Position numbers and translations under genes: made by a program. Source: Aurelia coerulea (lineage: Eukaryota > Cnidaria > Scyphozoa > Semaeostomeae > Ulmaridae). Taken from it: a stretch of DNA of 64,000 nt. The stretch covers positions 2,790,001-2,854,000 of the forward strand of contig CM076958.1 of assembly GCA_039566865.1 (NCBI GenBank), read 5' to 3'. How positions within the stretch are numbered: the stretch's first letter is position 1; every line of letters starts with the position of its first letter. Positions 19,003-54,515 of the stretch are shown here, in pieces. The notes under the pieces are model-generated. The model was not told the origin of the DNA. It did not search any database and saw only the letters and a list, made by a program, of their open reading frames with translations.

Positions 19003-20916
19003 CTACCTCAAGAACTCCCTTAATCTTACTTTAAAGGAGCTCAATGTTGCAGAGTCTCGTATATGCTTCGGGATCTCGTTCCAGGTACTTGCTCCCTGGT
19101 ATCCAAAAGACTTTTTGCAGTATTCAAGACGAAGCCGAGGAATTTCGAAATCATCAATTTTTCTTGTGTTATATCTCGAAATATTCGACCTAGGAGTGAA
19201 TTTATTTTTGAGGTTCTCTGGGCAGAGTCCATTGTTAATTTTGTATGTAGTAATTAGCCTGTCATATTTTATTAGATTGCGTACATCGAGCCAATCACAT
19301 ACCCAGCCATCTTTGTGCCTTGCGCATTCGATTAGTCTGCGTGCCCTGTTTTGCAACCTCTGTAGGGATTCCAGTTTTGTGTTTGACAGACATCCCCAAA
19401 TGACACTGCAATATCTCAGATGGCTTTCAATTAATGCTCGATAAACAGTTGCCAATTGTTTCTGGGAAAGGATGTTTTTGAGTTTAAACATCGCCCCTAA
19501 ACCGTTTTTTATCTTTCGCTTTACGGTTTTGAGTTGTTCTTCCCAATTCATGCTTTCGTCTATTATGACACCTAGATATTTTGTTTTTTGAACTCTGCAT
19601 AATTTTTGATCTTCTACTTCGAGGTCAGGGAAATCTTTGGCTCTGTTCAATTGTTTTGGATGCCCTATCAACATAAATTCGCTTTTTTCAGCATTTAGGC
19701 TAAGTTTGTTTTGCCTCATCCAGGATGATACAAGATCAAGTTCGCCCTTTATGTCATTAAAGAGCTCGTTGATCTCCATGGAGGCATAAGAAATGCTCGT
19801 GTCATCCGCGTACATATTTGGTTTAGATTTTTTCAAACATTTTTCAAAATCATTCATATAAATGATGAAAAGCAAGGGACCCAAACACGACCCCCGTGGT
19901 ATTCCACACTGTACTAAACGCTTGTTTGACGATTTACCTTCTACATAACAATACTGCTCTCTCCCGGCAAGGTATGAAGTGAACCAACCGTGTGCAAGAT
20001 CAGTGACTCCATAGGCTGATAACTTCGATAACAGAACATCATGGTCGACGGTATCAAAGGCTTTTTTTAGATCTAAAAATACGCTTACATTCGTTTTTTG
20101 CTCATTGATGTTCCTGAACCAAGTCTCTGTTATGTTCAGTATCGATGTTTGCGTGTTATGTAATTTACGGAATGAGAATTGGTTGTCTGAAAGAAGACCA
20201 CAATCTTTCATATGAGAAAAGAGTTGATCATGGGCCACCTTTTCCAGCAATCTTGACAGTATCGAAACGACAGAGATTGGTCTGTAATTTGTTAGCTCTG
20301 ATTTTTGACCTGCCTTATAGATTGGTGCCACTCTTGCCAGTTTCCAAAGGTCTGGAAAAATGCCAGTGTCGAGGGATCTATTAAAGATTGTTGTCAAAGG
20401 CCCGCTTACAATCTCCACAGCGTCTTTTAGTATTTTAATAGGTATTTTATCTGGACCTGGCGATTTTGAGGTCTTCAGTTTGTTTATCTCTTGCTTGACA
20501 TAAGATACTTCAACATGTTTGAACAAGAATTTCGGGAGACATTTGTCTTTCACCACATCTCGCACGTAAGCCATTGGGTCGGCATCAGTAGGTGCCTCAA
20601 TTTTGCTTGCAAGCTTAGGCCCAATGGTCACAAAATGCTCATTGAAGGCTTCAGCTATTTCATCTGGACGAACATACTCTCGACCGTTCAGTGTGACTGA
20701 ATTTAAGGGAGCGGAAGTTTTACATTTGTTTAACACTTTATTTATCGTTTTCCACATCGCTTTTGGATTACCTGAGTTTTCTTCGATTAAATTGTGATAG
20801 TAATCTTGCACACTGTTTCGTAGCTCACTTGTTACCTTATTCCTCAGTTTCTTATACCTAGGCCATACGTTATGATCTTTTTCGGCTCTTTTCTTTGCCT
20901 GGTCACATTGGCGGCG
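19003..20916 (-). CDS. LINE reverse transcriptase ORF2, 5'-truncated
   Basis: 637 open codons on the minus strand, bounded upstream by TGA (20917-20919), where homology stops. Counting from the first open codon, it contains a linker (about 1-140), SPGPDKIPIKIL (about 152-163), NYRPISVVSILSRLLEK, motif A FLDLKKAFDTVDH (about 280-292), GIPRGSCLGPLLF (about 338-350), the catalytic MYADDTS (YADD about 369-372), then the thumb and the C-terminal block with TWNEIPKHIRD and SFKVRLREFLR. These are RT_like (RVT_1) landmarks of a non-LTR retrotransposon of the CR1/Jockey-like kind. The apurinic endonuclease domain and ORF1 are missing, so it is a dead-on-arrival copy. No internal stop or frameshift was seen, which suggests a fairly recent insertion. 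It lies inside a TA-MITE. Confidence 0.92.
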   Translation of the reverse strand, partial: RRQCDQAKKRAEKDHNVWPRYKKLRNKVTSELRNSVQDYYHNLIEENSGNPKAMWKTINKVLNKCKTSAPLNSVTLNGREYVRPDEIAEAFNEHFVTIGPKLASKIEAPTDADPMAYVRDVVKDKCLPKFLFKHVEVSYVKQEINKLKTSKSPGPDKIPIKILKDAVEIVSGPLTTIFNRSLDTGIFPDLWKLARVAPIYKAGQKSELTNYRPISVVSILSRLLEKVAHDQLFSHMKDCGLLSDNQFSFRKLHNTQTSILNITETWFRNINEQKTNVSVFLDLKKAFDTVDHDVLLSKLSAYGVTDLAHGWFTSYLAGREQYCYVEGKSSNKRLVQCGIPRGSCLGPLLFIIYMNDFEKCLKKSKPNMYADDTSISYASMEINELFNDIKGELDLVSSWMRQNKLSLNAEKSEFMLIGHPKQLNRAKDFPDLEVEDQKLCRVQKTKYLGVIIDESMNWEEQLKTVKRKIKNGLGAMFKLKNILSQKQLATVYRALIESHLRYCSVIWGCLSNTKLESLQRLQNRARRLIECARHKDGWVCDWLDVRNLIKYDRLITTYKINNGLCPENLKNKFTPRSNISRYNTRKIDDFEIPRLRLEYCKKSFGYQGASTWNEIPKHIRDSATLSSFKVRLREFLR

Positions 20917-30890: not shown

Positions 30891-31944
30891 CAGGGTGTCC
30901 CATCAAGAGCTTCTCAGTTTTAAACTCAAATATCTCTCGACCTGCTTATCCTAGCAAAAGAAATGAAATCTTTTCTGAAAGCGTAAATTGCAGTTAATAA
31001 ATAAGCACTAGTTTGATAGAATTGAGCAACTTAACAAAAAATTAGGGGGGGTCGTAAAATATGAATCAACTTTTTGGCATTTGTAAGCAACGTTTTACAA
31101 TATCAACACGTGCAATTGGCCACACCATAATAATTTACCTATATTTCTTAGGGCCTGTTTATATGAGGAAAATCATCCCACCTTCCAGGCTATTGGCTGT
31201 CAGGTGGGATGAAATCTGCGTGTGTTTATATGTAATTTTCATCCCACCTTCCAGCATTTCCATCCCACCTCCCAGCCTGTGATTTCAGACAATAACAATC
31301 GTAATTGGTGTTTGGCGCCAGCAGCGATTAGGTTTCCCTTTGTTTTCATATTGGCGCGTGCGCAAGACAGACGATTTCATCCCACCTTCCAGCTTTTCAT
31401 CCCACCTTCCAGCGTTTATATGGAAAATTTTCATCCCACTTCAGTGAGATCCCACCTCTCGTAGAGTGGGATCTCACCTAGCCGGGCTGGTTCATTTTCC
31501 ATATAAATGCAAGATGAACATTACAAGGGATCGTATAGAAGGGTGGGATCTCACCTCTCAGCTCACAGGCTGGAAGGTGGGATGATTTTCCCCATATAAA
31601 CAGGCCCTTAATTCATCTCAACTCCAATGACACCCCTGCAAATGAATGATATCCTGAGTGTCTCAAACCCCATTTCTGTAAGAAGGACGGGGGCTATTGT
31701 GGTAAAAATTGGCAAGCATTTCAATATACATATTGATATCGTAAAACGCTGCTTACAAATGCTAAAAGGTTTATTCGTATTTGACGACTCCCGGTTTTCG
31801 TTTCCGTTGCTCACTTTATCAAATTAGAGCTCATATAGAACTGCAGTACTACGCTTTTAGACAATGTCCTATTCGTTTTGCTAGGATGAGCAGGTCAAGA
31901 AATATTTACGGTTGAAGCTGGGAAGCTTTTTATGAGACACCCTG
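30891..31944. mobile_element. TA-MITE hosting a Harbinger MITE
   Basis: Left CAGGGTGTCCCATCAAGAGC, right end GAGACACCCTG|TA (31945-31946). The arms pair over about 170 bp (GACCTGCTTATCCTAGCAAA with the GCTAGGATGAGCAGGTC side). Removing 31148-31607 leaves about 594 bp. The left flanking base pair has decayed to CA. Confidence 0.78.
31151..31607 (-). mobile_element. PIF/Harbinger-like MITE, 457 bp, TTA TSD
   Basis: TTA at 31148-31150 and 31608-31610. Ends are GGGCCTGTTTATATG and CATATAAACAGGCCC. GGGCCTGTTT-type ends with a 3-bp TTA duplication are characteristic of PIF/Harbinger. The interior is built from repeated GGAAGGTGGGATGA and GTTTATATGG modules in both orientations. Non-coding; it is nested in a TA-MITE. 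Confidence 0.85.
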
Positions 31945-32195: not shown

Positions 32196-32741
32196 TAGAC
32201 TTATGATGATGAGTCCTTGTATCCCAGCGGTACCCTGCTCAACAAGGACTCATATTGAAACAGTTAAAACCTGACCCTATCTTCTGTATTCGATCGATCG
32301 AATCTGGATCGAACGACTGCTCCGGCTCTGTTCAACAGTCATTCCTTAGAAAGGAAATGCCATAGAAACCACGGTAAGCAGACACTTAATCAACGAAACT
32401 TGGTTCTCATCTGAAGAGGAAAGTTCACTTTACCTAGTGAGTGCAAAATAAGTCTTTTAATGCTGCAATTTCCATGCTTTTAAGACCAAAACATACCAGA
32501 GAAATCTTCAAGTACCTTCCGCAGCAACTTCCTTTAAATTTAGTCAACTGCGTCAATCGAATTGAAGGTTCGAAACTTATTGTTCTTCCACAAATCTCGC
32601 ATTCTGATTGGTATGCTAGTAATCCCAGTGTATTAGGCCTAAATAGGGTCACAGAGTAATACTATGAGTCTCTATTGACTGAAGCGCCATCTTGAAGTCA
32701 AAGGGCACAGGGAAACGAGAGACTCATCGTCATAAGTCTAG
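32196..32741 (+). mobile_element. hAT-like MITE, 546 bp (TAGACTTATG ends)
   Basis: Flanks CCCCGCTT (32188-32195) and TCCCGCTT (32742-32749) match 7 of 8. Ends are TAGACTTATGATGATGAGTC and GACTCATCGTCATAAGTCTAG. The inner sequence includes a decayed TA-MITE terminus (TTACCTAGTGAGTGC, 32432 onward) that is also present in the other copy. Confidence 0.85.
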
Positions 32742-40391: not shown

Positions 40392-41177
40392 TAGACTTAT
40401 GACGATGAGTCTCTTGTTGCCTTGTGCTCTTTGACTTCAAGATGGCGCTTCAGTCAACAGAGACTCATAATATTACTCTGAAAAACCTGACCCTATTAGG
40501 CCTAATATGCTGGGATTCCTAGCATACCAATTAGAATGCGAGATTTGGCGAAGAACAATCAGTTTCGAACCTTCAATTCGATTGACGCAGCTTACTAAAT
40601 TTGAAGGAAGTTGCTGCAGCAGGTACTTGAAGATTTCTCTGTTATGTTTTGGTCTTAAAAACGTGGACATTGCAGCATTAAAAGACTTATTTTGCACTCA
40701 CCAGGTAAAGTGAACTTTCTTCTTCAGATTAATACCAAGTTTTGTTGATTAAGTGTCTGCTTACCGTGGTTTCTATCGCATTTCCTTTCTGAGGAGTGAC
40801 TGTTGAACAGAGCCGAAGCAGACGTTCGATCCAGATTCCATCAGTTCAGTTCAGTTCAGTTCAGTTTCATCATTTTAAAATTCCACCAACATACAATATT
40901 GAAATAATTAATACATTAAACACAAAAGAAAACTATTACAACTAAATTTAACTTAACTAACATACAACAACAATACTGATCAATTAAATACAAATAAGGA
41001 GAATTGTATGCATGGGAATTTCTTAAGGAGGAGCTCTCTCAGTAGCTAGGCTAATCGAGGAGAGAGCACCCCATCAATCGAATGCAGAAGATAGGGTCAG
41101 GTTTTTAACTGTTTCATTATGAGTCCCTGTGAGCAAGGTACCGCAGGGATACAAGGGACTCATCGTCATAAGTCTAG
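40392..41177 (-). mobile_element. hAT-like MITE copy 2, interrupted by LINE 3' end
   Basis: Perfect TSD TCCTGGTA at 40384-40391 and 41178-41185. It is the inverse of 32196-32741. Removing the LINE piece (40844-41070 plus one CCATCA) gives about 553 bp. It ends 68 bp before the SMIM15 start codon. Confidence 0.88.
40844..41070 (-). mobile_element. LINE 3' UTR with (ACTGA)n tail
   Basis: On the minus strand it ends ATGAAACTGAACTGAACTGA. CCATCA at 40838-40843 and 41071-41076 is the likely TSD. Only the 3' UTR was copied. Confidence 0.7.
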
Positions 41178-41245
41178 TCCTGGTACCTATCCATCCAAGC
41201 CTCTAGATCAAGTCGAGGTTATTTTAGGGCAGCTACAAAATCAAA

Positions 41246-44200
41246 ATGTCGGACGACGAAACTTGGAAAGAATTCTTTGAAAGATGGGCATTGGGAATCA
41301 TAGAATATGCTGCAAAGAACCCAAAGGATTTCGTTTTATATTGTAAGTATCAAATTGGTGAAGCTGCAGCCATCGATTTGATTGATGTGAATCACATCAT
41401 GTGATGATGATGACAGAAACGACAAAGCATTTGCTTCTCAATTTCATTCAGCCATCACCACCATAGGGTCACACCTCCAGTCTGCGGACACTATTATTTA
41501 ATTGGTAATTGTCACTACTTAGAAATCGCGTACGAACCTATGCAATGACTCACAACACAGGTTAAGTTTAAAACATACATATGTGCTGCTATCACATCAG
41601 AATATCAAAATGAAATTTTAATCAATTTCTCCGCACAAAAATCTTGGCTCTTCTTTGTCTTGTTGTCTCTTTCCAGTTGGCGGCCATGACCTCCAGTCTG
41701 CGGACATGTAATAAATTCACTACAAATTTGCCTAAAAGGGCATTGTTTCAAAATATTTCCAACAATTCAGCCCTTGTTAACTCATTGTTATGTGCCTTGC
41801 AAATTGCAATGATTCCAATCAGCTCTTGATTTAAGTCAAAATTATCAAAACCAATGGATTATAACATCCTGTAAAAATTGGGCCTAAATTGCCATTTTTC
41901 CACAGGGCGCACAAGAAACAAATGGAAAACACGTGTCCTCAGACTGGAGATAGGTTGTGTCAGTGACGGGTTGAACTTTAACCCCCCTGAATCCTGAATA
42001 AGAGGTGTAATCATCAGAGCTCCCAAGGGAATTTGAAAACAAAGCATGGTAAAACAATAGACGATTACGGAAAAGATGGCGGACCTCATTTCACGCAATG
42101 CATGAAGGGAATATGCCCCCTAGCAACGCATAGCTACCAAGATTTATGACTGCAGCATAAAATCTTGACCGCAGCTGCGATAGATTTTGGCTGTCGCAAC
42201 TTTATCGTGAGATCTACGCTCTTTTCAGTCATCACTCACAGTTTTAAGGAAAATTCGTCTTCATATGGTCTTGTTTCATAAATAAGTTTGAAGTGACCAG
42301 CTGTTTTCGTCGTTTCGTCAAGAGTTTCAAGATTTTTGACTTTGTTTACCTTTACTGTCAAGGGTCGAGGCTGTGAACAGACCCTGGCATTCGAAAATAG
42401 AATGAAATATTGTAAATTCTTTTCTCTTGGAATTTGCATAACAAAAGTATAATGTATTGCAATGGCTTCGATTCGCTCGGCCGAACACAACATTCGAACT
42501 CTCTTACTTTCAGAAATCAAAATGTGCATTCTTTCGGGATTTTTCTCTGCCAAGTCTGCCAGCTCTACCGTTTTCTGAATGTGCCTTCTTTTGGCAACTT
42601 AGATTTTTCTCTGCGAAGCGTACAGTGCCATTTTCAGAAGACTCTGCAGACTTCAGGGCCCTTCAGATGCCCAAAAGAAGATGCCTTTGGAAGAGCGTAG
42701 ATCTCACGATAAAGCTGCGACGGCCTAAATCTATCGCAGCTGCGGTCAAGATTTTATGCTGCAGTCATAAATTTTGGTAGCTATGCGTTGCTAGGGGGCA
42801 TATTCCCTTCATGCATTGCGTGAAATGAGGTCCGCCATCTTTTCCGTAATCGTCTATTGGAGCGTGAAAACAGTCTTGACGGAACATTTTGCAATGATTT
42901 AACACACAAAGTTTGAATTCACTGGTTTATTGACTAATGCTGGCAATGGAAAGGATTCTTGGCTGTCAAATTTCAATTTGCTCAGAAGGTGATCAGCTTT
43001 GAATTCTCTGAAGTTCTGATGAAATTCTTGACGGAAATTTTCGAATAAGAATAAAACTAGGTTTAAGGGACCAGAAAAGTGCGTGGATTTACAGTTTTTT
43101 TATGGACGAAAACAAGTGTTTTCACTCGTTGTTTGCAGACTGGATTTGTCCGCAGACTGGAGGTATGACCCTAACTGAGTCTAGCCTAGGTATATATGTA
43201 AATATATATAGGTTGAGACTGTTAGTTAGGCATGATTTAGGCAGCTGATACGTAGGATGGTTTTTAAATTTTGAATCAGCCTAGTATCAGGCTTTCTGTG
43301 AACCTTTGCAAAAAACATTCCGTTTCCAAAAACCTGCCATGTTTTAAAAAGCCTTCCTTTTATTATGTCACTTCCTTTGGCACTCTTCCCCCACATGCCT
43401 TAGATTGTAGCTAATATTTTGTTCCATGAAAATATCCTTCAATACAATCCTTATTCATTTCAGGACTTTAAGTCTGAAATTGCTCCCATAGAGATCCTGT
43501 CAGCCAGAGTTTATCAAATCATGAAACTCTCAAAAAGGCCTGGTTGTATGGCATTTTCATCCAATTTTGACTATTTGCTGAGTAAAACTCGTTTGCAAAT
43601 TGTGCATAGAATCCTGTGACTTCATAACAAATTCCTCAAACAAACTCTAATTGTCCTTAAATTGTTTTTGTCAAAATTTCTCAAAGGCAGATAGTTTTTC
43701 AGAAGCAATTGTTTAGTTATTTTGTCCCCAAGCATCAAGATTTTCAAATGGTGTTTTTTAACTTATTTGCTGAATTTGAGAAATCTCATTTCAATATATA
43801 CTTTGTTTCTTTTCACAGTCTTTATGGCCCTGACTCCAATAATGATATGCAGTGCAGTGTTGGCATTTCTAATGATCAAAGAGCTTGACCAAAAAGATAA
43901 AGAAAAGAAAAAGAAAAGTAAGAATTTGCTGCAAAATCAATTTGATGATACAAATAAATCACACAAGTTAATCAAATTGAAAGAGTATGGTCTTCTTGAA
44001 AGCATTCAATTCCTGAATTCAGTTCTTCTTTATCTTTTCTTTTCATGTTGGCATAGCTTCCTTTGAATCCTTTCTTCAGACTGTCCATCCAGCATTCCTG
44101 TTCTTATTCTCCCCCTTGTTCTCTTGTTCTCCATTCTTCCTGCTATTGCGAACTTGAGTAAGTTGTCACCCTATATAATGTGTCCAAGCCAATTTTTCTT

Positions 44201-45118
44201 TTGATGGGTGATGTTGTTTTTTATTTGCCTCTTTTCTTTTATCAGCTGAAGTACTTCTTCATTGGTTTTCCTGTCAGTCCATCGTATCTTTTCCATTCTT
44301 CTCCATACCCACGTTTCAAATGCTTATATCCTCTTGATATCAGTGTACCTGGAGGGTCCAGGTCCCAGATCTATATAAAACAACAAAAAATTAATCCTGT
44401 TGAAAAAACATTGAAAATGCACCAGGGTAAAAACTTTAAAAGTCAGGCTCATTATCTTATGTCTGGAAATTGATCTTCTTCTCTACATTTTTTAAAGCTA
44501 ACCTAAACATGTCAAATTTGTTTGTTTGTTTTTGTTTGTTGCCTTATTTTTATTCGATTTTTTACACCTAGCTATACATATATATATACAATGTTGATAC
44601 TGATGAAGGCTTGCGCCGAAACGTTTAAACAAATGTGTTTTTCTTGAGTACATATATCTTTTTTATAACATATTGCGAATGAGCTAATGAGAATATATAT
44701 ATATATATATACAAATAAAATGGATACTATAAGTGCGGATGAAGAACAAACGAGAAATAGACAAAAATTTGATGTTTTTAGCACACTAAGGCCTTTCAAG
44801 TCATTACTATCATCAGAGTGTGAATGAGAGTCACACTCTGATGATAGTAATGACTTGAAAGGCCTTAGTGTGCTAAAAAACATCAAATTTTTGTCTATTT
44901 CTCATTCGTTCTTCATCCGCACTTATAGTATCCATTTTATTGTTTCTTTATTGCCAATATATACAAATATATACACATACAACTCATCTAAATCGAAGCT
45001 ACTAGCAAATGGAAAAAATTGAATTAAAGGAATTCAATAAACATCTTCTCTTTCCTTTGCAGATACAAAACAAGTGAATTTAGCAAAGACAAGGAGGAAG
45101 GCTGTAAAAACGGATTGA
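41246..45118 (+). CDS. SMIM15: SMIM15-like small integral membrane protein, 3 exons
   Basis: Exons 41246-41342, 43819-43917 and 45063-45118 join to 252 nt (83 codons plus TGA). Donors are GTAAGT and GTAAGA; acceptors are TTTTCACAG and TTTGCAG; both introns are phase 1. The product has an acidic N-terminus (MSDDETWKEFF), then IEYAAKNPKDF, one membrane helix (about residues 31-52, containing ALTPIMICSAVLAF), a Lys/Glu-rich charged stretch (DQKDKEKKKK) and a basic tail ending RRKAVKTD. This order and the motifs WAAK-x-P, ALTP, SAVL, KEKKKK and N-x-AK-x-x-R match the SMIM15 family, which is about 74 residues in human as I recall it. The start is the first ATG of an open frame that reads straight into a strong donor. 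SMIM15 has no well-established molecular function; a single-pass membrane protein is the safe statement. Both introns are packed with inverted-repeat elements, and a hAT-like MITE ends 68 bp before the ATG. Confidence 0.9.
41466..43171. mobile_element. Composite TIR element filling SMIM15 intron 1
   Basis: TA flanks at 41464-41465 and 43172-43173. Ends are GGGTCACACCTCCAGTCTGC and GCAGACTGGAGGTATGACCC. Extra copies of the CCTCCAGTCTGCGG block at 41690-41704, and inverted near 41940, show internal rearrangement. Holds 42055-42859. Confidence 0.65.
42055..42859. mobile_element. TIR element in SMIM15 intron 1, ~805 bp
   Basis: Ends CAATAGACGATTACGGAAAA and TTTTCCGTAATCGTCTATTG; the arms pair for about 170 bp (to AGAGCGTAGATCTCACGAT). 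No convincing TSD. It is nested inside 41466-43171. Confidence 0.78.
44714..44941. repeat. 228-bp near-perfect palindrome in SMIM15 intron 2
   Basis: The arms begin ATAAAATGGATACTATAAGT and run about 110 bp to a loop of about 8 nt (AATGAGAG) between GTGTG and CACAC. A half copy with the same arm (AACTTGAAAGGCCTTAGTGT to the ATCCGCAC block) is at 22775-22856. Confidence 0.85.
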
Positions 45119-45477: not shown

Positions 45478-46650
45478 ATCATTCATTCATTTATACAGTT
45501 ATTCTTCTCTGCATCCAGTTGTACATTCTTTTTTCATTCATTCATTAACTCATTGATTCTTTTATCATTTATTTATTCATTCATACATCAATTCTTTATC
45601 TATTATTTGTTCATCAATTCATTCATTTATACATTTATTCAGTTATTCGTTCAGTTATTCATTCTGCCTTTCATTCATTTATTAATTCATTTATTCATTA
45701 ACTCATTAATTCTTTTATCATTTATTCATTCATTCATTCATTCATACATACATCTAATCTTTATCTATTATTTGCTCATCAATTCATTCATTTATACATT
45801 TATTCAGTTATTCGTTCAGTTATTCATTCTGCCTTTCATTCATTTATTAATTCATTTATTCATTAACTCATTAATTCTTTTATCATTTATTCATTCATTC
45901 ATTCATTCATACATACATCTAATCTTTATTTATTTGTTTGTTCATCAATTCATTCATTTATACATTTATTCAGTTATTTGTTCAGTTATTCATTCTGCCT
46001 TTCATTCATTTATTAATTCATTTATTCATTAACTCATTAATTCTTTTATCATTTATTCATTCATTCATTCATTCATACATACATCTAATCTTTATTTATT
46101 TGTTTGTTCATCAATTCATTCATTTATACATTTATTCAGTTATTCGTTCAGTTATTCATTCTGCCTTTCATTCATTTATTAATTCATTTATTCATTAACT
46201 CATTAATTCTTTTATCATTTATTCATTCATTCATTCATTCATTCATACATACATCTAATCTTTATTTATTTATTTGTTCATCAATACATTCATTTATATA
46301 TTTATTCAGTTATTCATTCTGTCATTCATTTATTTATTCATTAACTCATTTATTAATTCATTTATTCATTAATTATTTCATTCATTCATTCATTCATACA
46401 TTCATACATATATTCTTTATCAATTTATTTGTTCATCAATTCATTCATGTATACATTTATTCAGTTATTCATTCTGTCATTCATTTATTTATTCATTAAC
46501 TCATTTATTCATTAATCATTTTATTGACTTTTTCATTTTGTTAATTCATTCTAACTCTTATATTATTGTGTTTTTCCTAAATTCATTTATTTGATTGTTC
46601 ATTTATTTATTTCCTTAGTTATTCATTCATTCATTCGTTCATTGATTTAT
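45478..46650 (+). repeat. TTCA-rich array with 166-bp higher-order unit
   Basis: Degenerate (TTCA/TTTA)n. Above that, units beginning TTGTTCATCAATTCATTC (or TTGCTC) recur at 45607, 45773, 45939, 46104 and 46274 (166, 166, 165 and 170 bp), each with a GTTATTCATTCTGCC landmark. Open frames through it are low-complexity artefacts. Confidence 0.93.
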
Positions 46651-48648
46651 TATAAGGTGCATCACAAAGTAAAATAAACTCTAACAAAATTCTTGAATCC
46701 TTAGAATGAATTTCCCGAATTTGACAACGTGACAATTCTAGTTTCAAGGCATATTTGCAAGACAATGTCGTCATGAAACTGGTAAGAATGAAAGTACCAT
46801 TAACTATCTTCGAGGATAAGACCGTTTAGAAACCAAATTCTTCGCGTCAACAAATGTTTTTCCACCATTGCCCAACCCAGTTACAAATGATACCCAATCT
46901 TCAACCCCTTGGACCGTCACAAATGTACCCCAAGACAGTCAGTCTATTCGAAGAATATGAAAGATTTTCTAAAAAATGTCCTTTCGAAAACCTGTCTTCG
47001 AGGATAAGGCCGTTTAGAAACGAAATTCTTCGCTTCAACGAATGCTTTTTTCACCATTGCTTCTTGTTGCTACAACAACATAAACTCTTTTTTTACTTTG
47101 ACGTCAGGGAAATATTTGATTTCCTACCGATTAATTTTCAAGTCCTGTTTACCTGGAAGATAATTGCTTATTACTAATTACTATTTGTTAATCTTAAATT
47201 GATAAGGTATAATGATACTACCATATTTTGAGGGTAAACAACTTAAGGGTAAGCAATTTAAGGGTAAACAACTTGAGGGTATTTAGAGGCGTCGCCGTAC
47301 ACATTGTGGCCAATAAGTGCTCAATTTGGCTTTCCAGCATAAACTAATCTTAGCCCAAAATGTTGCCTGTCCTAGCACGTACAATTTGTAGTGAATTAAT
47401 TATGGCTCTTGGAGCGGCGAGTGGCTAAAAACACTCGCCATCTTATAGGCCTCGCTCATCTTCAGGTTTACTTGGTGAATTGTTTGCTGATTAGCCAAAA
47501 TGGTAACATAGGTTTGAAAATTTGCCTCCGTCAACAGAAGAACGTTATGTCTGAAATTACAAGTGTTTCCTCTGCAACTTGAAAAAATGGCTCAAAATTT
47601 CGAGCAACCTGGCAATGTAAACAACACATATGAAAGTCACATGAAGAAATCATGCTAAATGCTGGTTGGTTGAAATCGAACGGGCGACGCAACAAGCCAA
47701 AAGCTTTATAAAAGGTCTAAATCATTTCAGCGACAAACCACAGCAGCTCAAAAGGGACGACATCTTTTCGCGGGAAACTGACAGAGATTCGTTGTATGAC
47801 ACTAGACAGTAGAGTTCCAGGAAAAAATTGTCAGTTTTATTGGCGGCAAGTTGAGTAAAATTTGTTGCAACACTTAAAAATGATAGCTGTAATGCTGGTT
47901 CCTGGAAACTTCAATCTTACATCACTGAAGACAACCCTGTCAGAAACGAGGATAAGAATCAATGAGATTGTTTGAATGTGATATAACCCGTAAGATATCA
48001 ATCAAAAGTACGGCGCTCCTTTGTTGATTCCAGGAAAAATGTCAGTTTCACACGATTCCAGACACCAAAAATTCACCAGGCCAGTCTAGACTGAGAATAA
48101 GAATCACTGAGATTGTTTACATTTGATGTGGCCCATCAGATCTCCATCAAAACCGTTGATCCTGAGCTGTGCTGTCGTCTTGATGACGTAAATCGCTCAA
48201 TTGTGGTGGTCTTTTTGCTACCATATCCACCATATCATAGTAAAATTTGTTTACAGACTGTCTTCAAAATTGTTTACAGGCTGTCTTCAAAATTGTTTAC
48301 AAATCTGGGGACCCAGAGAAAGTCTGCATTGACAAGAATAGCCTCCACAACGAAACAGTTTGGTGTACGGTAGAAACATGTACATAGATTCTAACTTCAG
48401 CGAAAGTTTTTCAAGCGAAAAGTTTTGAGTGATATGGGCGTTGGGGGCCCGGGGAAAGAAGGCATAAAAAATCATGGCAAAATGGTCTTTATTTTTGTGG
48501 TCCATGAAAATTATGTTTCAGTGAAATCAGATTTTGGATCCCTCAAGGATCCTGCTTAGGATCATTGCTGTTTATTCATATCAGTACCTTTTTGATTACA
48601 AAGTCCAGCTTTGTAATCTAAGAGGGGGCTCCGGGTCAGTCAGAAAGT
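46651..48648. other. Unassigned interval
   Basis: Apart from the 18-bp repeat and the small hairpin GCGAGTGGCTAAAAACACTCGC (47417-47438, stem GCGAGTG), nothing is recognised. Confidence 0.35.
47230..47283 (+). repeat. ~18-bp triple repeat
   Basis: GAGGGTAAACAACTTAAGGG, with three near-copies in tandem. Confidence 0.7.
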
Positions 48649-51158: not shown

Positions 51159-51621
51159 GGGCCTGTTTATATGGGGAAAATCATCCCACCTTCCAGCCTG
51201 TGAGCTGAGAGGTGAGATCCCACCCTTCTATACGATCCCTTGTAAGTTTCATCCTGCGTTTATATGGAAAATGAGCCAGCCCGGCTAGGTGAGATCCCAC
51301 TCTACGAGAGGTGGGATCTCACTGAAGTGGGATGAAAATTTTCCATATAAACGCTGGAAGGTGGGATGAAAAGCTGGAAGGTGGGATGAAACCGTCTGTC
51401 TTGCGCACGCGCGAATATGAAAACAAAGGGAAACCTAATCGCTGCTGGCGCCAAACACCAATTAGAACACGATTGTTATTGTCTGAAAACCGTGGGCTGG
51501 GAGGTGGGATGAAAATGCTGGAAGGTGGGATGAAAATTACATATAAACACACGGAGATTTCATCCCACCTGACAGCTGATAGCCTGGAAGGTGGGATGAT
51601 TTTACTCATATAAACAGGCCC
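51159..51621 (+). mobile_element. PIF/Harbinger-like MITE copy 2 (463 bp)
   Basis: Same ends and interior as 31151-31607, opposite orientation. The right side abuts TTA (51622-51624), shared with the next copy. The left side lacks TTA and is preceded by an inverted duplicate of its own interior (51082-51158). Confidence 0.85.
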
Positions 51622-51624
51622 TTA

Positions 51625-52081
51625 GGGCCTGTTTATATGGGGAAAATCATCCCACCTTCCAGCCTGTGAGCTGAGAAGTGAGATCCCACCCTTCTATACG
51701 ATCCCTTGTAATTTTCATCTTGCGTTTATATGGAAAATGAACCAGCCCGGCTTGGTGAGATCCCACTCTACGAGAGGTGGGATCTCACTGAAGTGGGATG
51801 AAAATTTTCCATATAAACGCTGGAAGGTGGGATGAAAAGCTGGAAGGTGGGATGAAATCGTCTGTCTTGCGCACGCGCGAATATGAAAACAAAGGGAAAC
51901 CTAATCGCTGCTGGCGCCAAACACCAATTACGATTGTTATTGTCTGAAATCACGGGCTGGGAGGTGGGATGGAAATGCTGGAAGGTGGGATGAAAATTAC
52001 ATATAAACACACGGAGATTTCATCCCACCTGACAGCTGATAGCCTGGAAGGTGGGATGAGTTTACTCATATAAACAGGCCC
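51625..52081 (+). mobile_element. PIF/Harbinger-like MITE copy 3 (457 bp)
   Basis: TTA at 51622-51624 and 52082-52084. Identical length and nearly identical sequence to the copy at 31151-31607 (inverted). It sits directly in tandem after copy 2. Confidence 0.87.
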
Positions 52082-52084
52082 TTA

Positions 52085-52773
52085 GAGATTTTGTGCAGAA
52101 GTGTTGACATTGTACTCGACTATAAATCAATAAATAATCATCAGTTTCAACACATGTCGCTATGTCCAGATCAAATTTTAGGAGGCATGGTTAATTTTCT
52201 TGTGACGAGTCTATCATTGAGGAGAACCTACTTCAATTGTGTAGCCTTCACAATGAATATCAACATAAACATTGAGTAAAAACAATAACATTGAGTTGTA
52301 AAATTGTGTGCGTCAACCATCCGCTAAGCCGGCTTTCTGGCATTCTCTGATTTTTGTCGTCGAGAGATTGTGAAGAGATGAGCTACATTTTGTCAGTACG
52401 CTCTGTTTGAATTTTTCGAATCGGTTACACGATTTTTCCACTATATATTTGAAAAAAGAGATTGCTCTGGAGATGCCCTAGTGGGCGAAACTAGTTAGCA
52501 GATAACTGAATAGAAAAGCGCAAAAGATCAACTCGATGCCTGCTCTCTGTGGATGTTGTCCCTCTTCTTCTCATCGTTCATTTTATTTTTTATTTGAAAA
52601 AGGATATTTATTAACTCCTCGCCTGCTAAAATTGACAAAGTCTTTAAGGAGCTGGCGTATATGGCTAGTGCCCCTTTTTTCGCTTCGAATGGCTTTAAAG
52701 GAACTTTAGTATCATTGCTGTAATTTTTGCCATGGACTTATTGAGAGAACTACTCACGACCACCACAATATGT
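52085..52773. other. Unassigned interval
   Basis: Nothing recognised between the Harbinger pair and the next TA-MITE. Confidence 0.35.
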
Positions 52774-53402: not shown

Positions 53403-53964
53403 TAAGAAAAAAGACCATTGCACTATTTATCATCTATGCGCTTGATATAAACCATTTCGTGCATGTTTTTCGTAACTCGAAAATCGTCCAACAAAGTCAG
53501 TCAAATTTCGTCCTTGTTTCGTCTTTGGAATGAACATTTTTGCACCACTAGTTACCCCCAAGAACCTAGCAGAAGCTACGCTTAAATTTTCTATGCCGCT
53601 TTTACCCATGTAAACTTGTACCCATATTTACTTGTATGTGGGGATGGGCCTCCTCGTTGCCATTTCGACTGAAAACTGGCCAAAATTTCATCGCATCTCT
53701 ATTCGTTTTTTCAGCCATTTTCAGAAACAGTTTCCTGGCGAAGTCGTCCATTTCTCTAGAGTGGTATGTTTGTTCAAATCCTGGATGAATCTATTCTTGG
53801 CACTACTATCCTAGCATTCGAAACTTTCCTTTTTCTTCTCTTTTCAATAAGGTTGCTCACACAACAACGAGGGTTTGAGTTCGAGACCATTACGATAAAA
53901 GGCAGTGTTGCTAATAGAATACGTGGCAGATAGAATGTAATATAATATAAATATAGCCTAAAAC

Positions 53965-54515
53965 CTATTGCTAGCAATGCCTTGCTTCATGGCAAGCCTT
54001 TCGCTGCTAAAAACATGCAATAACAGTTATGATTAAAACCAAGAGCTAGCGATGCCACGCTTAAACGCAGGTCTTTCGCTGGTAAAACATGCATTAAAAT
54101 TTTTTAGCCTAGATCGAGCGATGCCATGCTTAAACGAAGGTCTTTTGCTGCTTGAAAACATGCAGTAAAATTTCTAGCCAGCAATGCCATGCTTAAACGC
54201 AGGTCTTTCGCTACTTTAGAATATGCAGTAAAGCTTCTTAGCCTTATGCTAGCGATACCATGTTTAAACGCAGGTCTTTTGCTGCTTGAAAAAATGCAGT
54301 CAAATGTTTCAGCCTAAAGCTAGCGATGCCGTGTTTAAACGCAGGTCTTTTGCTGCTTGAAAATATGCAGTAAAATGTTTCAGCCTAAAGCTAGCGATGC
54401 CATGCTTAAACAAAGGTATTTCACTGCTTGAAAGCATGAGTAAAATTTCTGGCCTAAAGCTAACAGCACCATGTTTAAACGCAGGCCTTTCGCTTTTTGA
54501 AAACGTGCAATAGGA
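53965..54515 (+). repeat. Eight-copy minisatellite, unit ~63-76 bp
   Basis: Units contain GCTAGCGATGCCATGCTTAA, ACGCAGGTCTTTCGCTGCTT and AACATGCAGTAAAATTT. Unit starts are near 53970, 54046, 54116, 54179, 54250, 54318, 54388 and 54460. Copies are 75-95% alike. Confidence 0.9.

Follow-up and report, generated by a model that had tools for sequence, protein, structure and literature searches.

The locus

The window, that is, the whole stretch of 64,000 nucleotides of Aurelia coerulea DNA analysed here (C16:2790001-2854000), carries on its plus strand three short exons that join into a single open frame of 83 residues, in which all codons and the stop are intact (Table 1). Both introns are of the GT-AG type. 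The donors read GTAAGTAT after exon 1 and GTAAGAAT after exon 2, and the acceptors end in TTTTCACAG before exon 2 and in CCTTTGCAG before exon 3, so that intron 1 is bordered by GTAAGT/CACAG and intron 2 by GTAAGA/TGCAG. An in-frame TAG is located 21 bases 5' of the ATG. The exon coordinates, the lengths of 97, 99 and 56 bases and the junctions 41342/43819 and 43917/45063 had been proposed in an earlier note on this DNA and proved exact to the base, and the 83-residue product with its ALTP...SAVL stretch and KEKKKK tail described there is present in the joined translation.

That note had also considered each exon too short to show as an open reading frame and had therefore called the gene hidden. 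The first statement fails for exon 2, which is located inside a 123-residue stop-to-stop frame (43695-44066) and, in a profile search of the assembly, reached 36.5 bits with PF15086 on its own, above the cut-off of 27. The gene is indeed hidden from gene finding by frame length, but not from a profile search, which detects exon 2, nor from a protein search, by which exons 1 and 2 are detected strongly and exon 3 weakly.

Table 1. Features of the Aurelia locus and its surroundings (positions in the window)
Feature	Position	Strand	Description
Exon 1	41246..41342	+	97 nt; runs from the start codon to the phase-1 donor and covers residues 1-32 plus the first base of codon 33
Intron 1	41343..43818	+	2476 bp, phase 1
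Exon 2	43819..43917	+	99 nt; up to residue 65 plus the first base of codon 66, with KEKKKK and the larger part of the membrane helix
Intron 2	43918..45062	+	1145 bp, phase 1
Exon 3	45063..45118	+	56 nt including stop; from the remaining bases of codon 66 through residue 83, forming the basic tail
Upstream inverted-repeat element (MITE-like)	40392..41176		15/15 matching ends; perfect 9-bp flanking duplication GTCCTGGTA
Gap between element and ATG	41177..41245	+	69 bp
Inverted-repeat element in intron 1	41464..43173		27-bp inverted ends beginning TAGGGTCA; interrupted by inner element
Nested inverted-repeat element	42055..42859		Inside 41464-43173; 169-bp arms, 98% complementary
Fold-back sequence in intron 2	44714..44941		Arm pairs of 66 nt and 49 nt
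Reverse transcriptase frame	19003-20916	minus	637 residues; PF00078, E 2e-36

Within 1.5 kb 3' of the stop codon neither AATAAA nor ATTAAA was found, and the sole such signal up to position 48000 is at 46673. A TTCA-based tandem repeat of nearly 1 kb with a 166-bp higher-order unit (45533-46513) begins about 0.4 kb past the stop codon and is possibly part of the 3' untranslated region.

The gene had been thought to fix the strand of the whole region. However, a single gene is silent on its neighbours, and the reverse-transcriptase frame runs on the other strand. This frame was the only one with a Pfam match at E<=0.01 when 10 of the 24 listed open frames were searched, the remaining nine being without a match, and scans of the window for tRNAs and for Rfam families at gathering scores returned nothing. 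Repeated DNA is found elsewhere in the window: a 71-bp unit is repeated in tandem about eight times at 53959-54503, and the block at 31143-31608 recurs about 20 kb away in inverted orientation with 97-98% identity (51159-51464 and 51624-52089), where it is duplicated in tandem at around 51-52 kb.

Family membership and relatives

When compared with Pfam, the joined protein matched UPF0542 (PF15086) with an E value of 2.7e-18 and 66 bits (cut-off 27) over profile positions 3-68 of 68, while five other families that appeared at E<=1 each stayed under their own cut-off. The PF15086 profile found one place in the assembly at E<=0.001. The same search also produced a weak hit, below the cut-off, in its E. 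coli control, so little weight can be given to weak matches with this profile; those relied on here are far stronger. A protein search of the 574-Mb assembly (294 contigs), in which all seven candidates were scored, yielded three matches at E<=1, and these are the three exons themselves (E 4.8e-15 for exon 1 and 0.42 for exon 3 alone). At this threshold, the assembly showed neither a second copy nor an intronless retrocopy. The sequences of solved structures gave no match at E<=1. Searches for markers of the organism returned no COX1 match, with the family detected in 8 of 14 controls, no GFP match and, with 59 of 25,473 candidates scored, no mir-124 match at E<=0.001, the last two with no signal in any control; these results do not discriminate between phyla.

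Support for splicing was sought from relatives by comparison at the protein level. In the first protein search all eight candidates reached E<=0.01. Since P0002 corresponds to exon 1 of the window itself, seven of these are relatives, and P0001 alone among them is full length. This protein of 82 residues is uninterrupted, aligns to 96% of the query with 75% identity and is colinear with it through both junctions, at which there is no insertion or deletion; it is one residue shorter than the Aurelia protein near the N-terminus. The longest contig of its source, 1080 nt, suggests, short of proof, that P0001 is a transcript. Three relatives (P0004, P0005 and P0006) share exon 1 and then read CKY, as would be expected from read-through of a GTAAGTA donor, and two others (P0003 and P0007) share exon 2 and then read SK, as read-through of a GTAAG donor would give. 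P0008, on a 223-kb contig, has 25 residues of exon 2, MICSAVLAYLMIKELDQKGNEKKKK, in common with P0001 and diverges exactly at the position of intron 2, after which its residues are unlike those that follow the other donors. The gene type represented by P0001 probably has an intron at this position, and because P0008 departs from it there, P0001 itself reads like the spliced product of an intron-bearing gene.

Of 261 candidates in a search with a two-row profile, 11 proteins reached E<=0.1; this added P0009, P0010 and P0011, each of which matches UPF0542. In a comparison of six relatives with Pfam, five matched, the exception being P0004, which covers exon 1 only. The earlier reading of the locus as a complete SMIM15 homologue is thus borne out by the PF15086 match, by the continuity of an uninterrupted relative across both junctions and by other relatives whose reading enters introns at these very points.

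The gene neighbourhood known from human was looked for with the profiles PF05071 and PF21055. The sole PF05071 match in the assembly is located on C3 and is, as we assume from its residues, NDUFA12, although this search may have missed NDUFAF2 itself; the two matches to ZSWIM4-8_C (PF21055) are on C14 and C18, and the gene studied here is on C16. By these searches of the assembly, NDUFAF2 and ZSWIM6 were not found near the Aurelia gene, and human microsynteny at this locus was rejected, as the matches are on other contigs. Shared neighbours are supportive of orthology across phyla, not defining. The available text of PMC12659240 gives NDUFAF2 and ZSWIM6 as the neighbours of human SMIM15. The human neighbourhood used for the comparison was ERCC8-NDUFAF2-SMIM15-ZSWIM6.

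Mobile DNA in and around the gene

The surroundings of the gene had been described as rich in mobile DNA, and repeats were found in both introns and in the upstream flank. For the outer element of intron 1, for which a TA target is plausible, 39 other copies with 83-88% identity are listed (best 40 of 130 candidates scored), 35 of which start at 41463 or 41464. The element nested inside it has likewise 39 other listed copies, with 86-100% identity (best 40 of 538 candidates scored). One of them, on C7, is listed as 100% identical over 803 bases, which suggests a recent movement, and both the nesting and the higher identity among copies suggest that the inner element is the younger of the two.

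The upstream element, which belongs to a numerous kind and carries a further insert at approximately 40844-41072, is matched by 39 other listed copies whose best piece is 95-98% identical (best 40 of 4161 first-look candidates); for all three elements the identities lean high, because the best candidates alone were scored. A related copy in inverted orientation is located near 32296-32740. Immediately before the ATG, some 40 bp show a likeness to the 5' flank of the relative P0004 (SSRGxFRAATK in one frame). The bases between the element and the ATG are probably 5' untranslated region, and given the resemblance to P0004, the element appears to have been inserted just 5' of the gene's own 5' end. 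That it now supplies the promoter or the first transcribed bases is improbable in our view. If true, a recently moved element would have taken control of a conserved single-copy host gene.

Discussion

Taken together, we interpret the locus as a protein-coding animal gene that belongs to the SMIM15 (UPF0542) family, has three exons and occurs in a single copy, with a probability of about 0.96. The exons are short and the third one finds itself in the assembly only with an E value of 0.42, which might raise the suspicion that three unrelated short frames had been joined by eye, by chance. This was addressed with a profile HMM built from P0001, P0009, P0010 and P0011, which contains no window sequence but whose members had been found with the Aurelia protein as bait. 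This HMM was used to score 30,000 chains of three exons each, sampled at random on both strands of the window with a GTRAG donor, a YAG acceptor, introns of up to about 3 kb and an open frame. As random draws repeat, these correspond to 12,771 distinct names including the query, 12,220 of which do not touch the three exons. The joined protein scored 124.7 bits, and the exact chain, which was drawn three times without having been planted, came out on top, tied with the query, whereas 6.3 bits was the maximum for any chain that avoids the three exons. With P0001 removed from the HMM, the respective scores were 92.7 and 6.1 bits. Considering also that the Pfam match runs over nearly the full profile and that exon 3 (residues 66-83) is identical to P0001 at 15 of 18 residues, an assembly by chance is refuted and retains next to no probability.

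A different explanation would be that the locus is an SMIM15 copy that is silenced or in decay, with surviving exons but with its expression ended by mobile elements in the promoter and introns. This would fit an inverted-repeat element ending 69 bp before the ATG, the nested elements in intron 1 and the 1.5 kb downstream without a canonical poly(A) signal. However, every codon including the stop is intact, as are both GT-AG pairs, no other copy was found in the assembly, the bases between the element and the ATG resemble the flank of a relative, and the protein is 75% identical to P0001. We therefore regard a silenced copy as very unlikely.

On this reading, the pre-mRNA would be spliced at two phase-1 introns to encode an 83-residue single-pass membrane protein, with a putative amphipathic N-terminal helix at about residues 3-23, an N-P break, a predicted membrane helix at about residues 29-55 and a strongly basic tail. 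Hydropathy peaks at approximately residues 29-55, and the tail has a net charge of +8 compared with -3 for residues 1-28. AlphaFold2 was run on P0001 with a five-row alignment, one row of which (P0003) is homologous in exon 2 only, and gave helices at 3-23 and 25-81 with a mean pLDDT of 80.6 and a pTM of 0.42. Hydropathy and charge agree with this model in showing an N-terminal helix, the N-P break and a long helix that crosses the membrane into the basic tail. Following the positive-inside rule, the basic tail is most likely cytosolic.

What such a protein does can be proposed only tentatively. The most likely guess, based on this topology and on one human CRISPR screen and held with low confidence, is that it acts in the early secretory pathway as a small accessory membrane protein and assists the delivery of certain cargo to the surface. 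In the available text of that screen, cells in which SMIM15 was targeted showed greater resistance to a toxin that uses ADAM10 as its receptor, and the surface delivery of ADAM10 needs SYS1, ARFRP1 and TSPAN14; an action of SMIM15 via ADAM10 is not demonstrated there, and SGMS1, a further hit, produces a membrane lipid and thereby points to membrane lipids (PMC4828653). The same gene might also have another job, as a mitochondrial or translocon-linked small membrane protein with no part in trafficking. SMIM15 is among the results of a kidney mitochondrial protein study (PMC11934170), the available part of which would imply its presence in a mitochondrial preparation and may argue for a compartment other than the secretory one, and a basic tail following a membrane helix would suit contacts with the ribosome or translocon. 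The context of the CRISPR screen, as far as its available text goes, points instead to the secretory route (PMC4828653), with nothing decisive on either side, and we consider a mitochondrial or translocon-linked role quite possible, though short of likely.

In the available literature the human gene has no established function. In the text available of each source, information on human SMIM15 is described as limited (PMC7299323), no disease is reported for the human gene (PMC12659240), a parasite homologue appears in a mefloquine affinity experiment (PMC10025029) and repressed translation is described in dengue-infected cells (PMC9316442), the latter two giving no functional lead.

The earlier note describes an ordinary, conserved animal gene correctly and with care, and it confirms that a three-exon gene for a small protein is recoverable by eye from raw sequence. 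Little is changed by it beyond the annotation of the Aurelia genome. It does provide a gene structure, with a coding region divided by two phase-1 introns, for a conserved protein family without an established function.

In comparison with known members of the family, the Aurelia protein differs at a motif, LSWKL, that is quoted for the family in the available text of PMC10025029. The corresponding position reads LAFLM in the Aurelia protein, and the exact motif is likewise absent from all four full-length relatives (P0001, P0009, P0010 and P0011), each of which passes the PF15086 cut-off; the motif is descriptive, and membership in UPF0542 is decided by the profile score. P0009, a UPF0542 protein at 63.7 bits with a tail similar to that of the Aurelia protein, is encoded by an uninterrupted 80-residue frame on a 34-kb contig, in contrast to the two introns of the Aurelia gene, which suggests that some lineage may do without these two introns. 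Human SMIM15 (C5orf43), as a member of the same family, likewise has one membrane helix followed by a lysine-rich tail, and the ALTP...SAVL stretch presumably resembles the human protein. The human coding region, which we take to be contained in one exon, would then correspond to an Aurelia gene in which it is divided by two coding introns.
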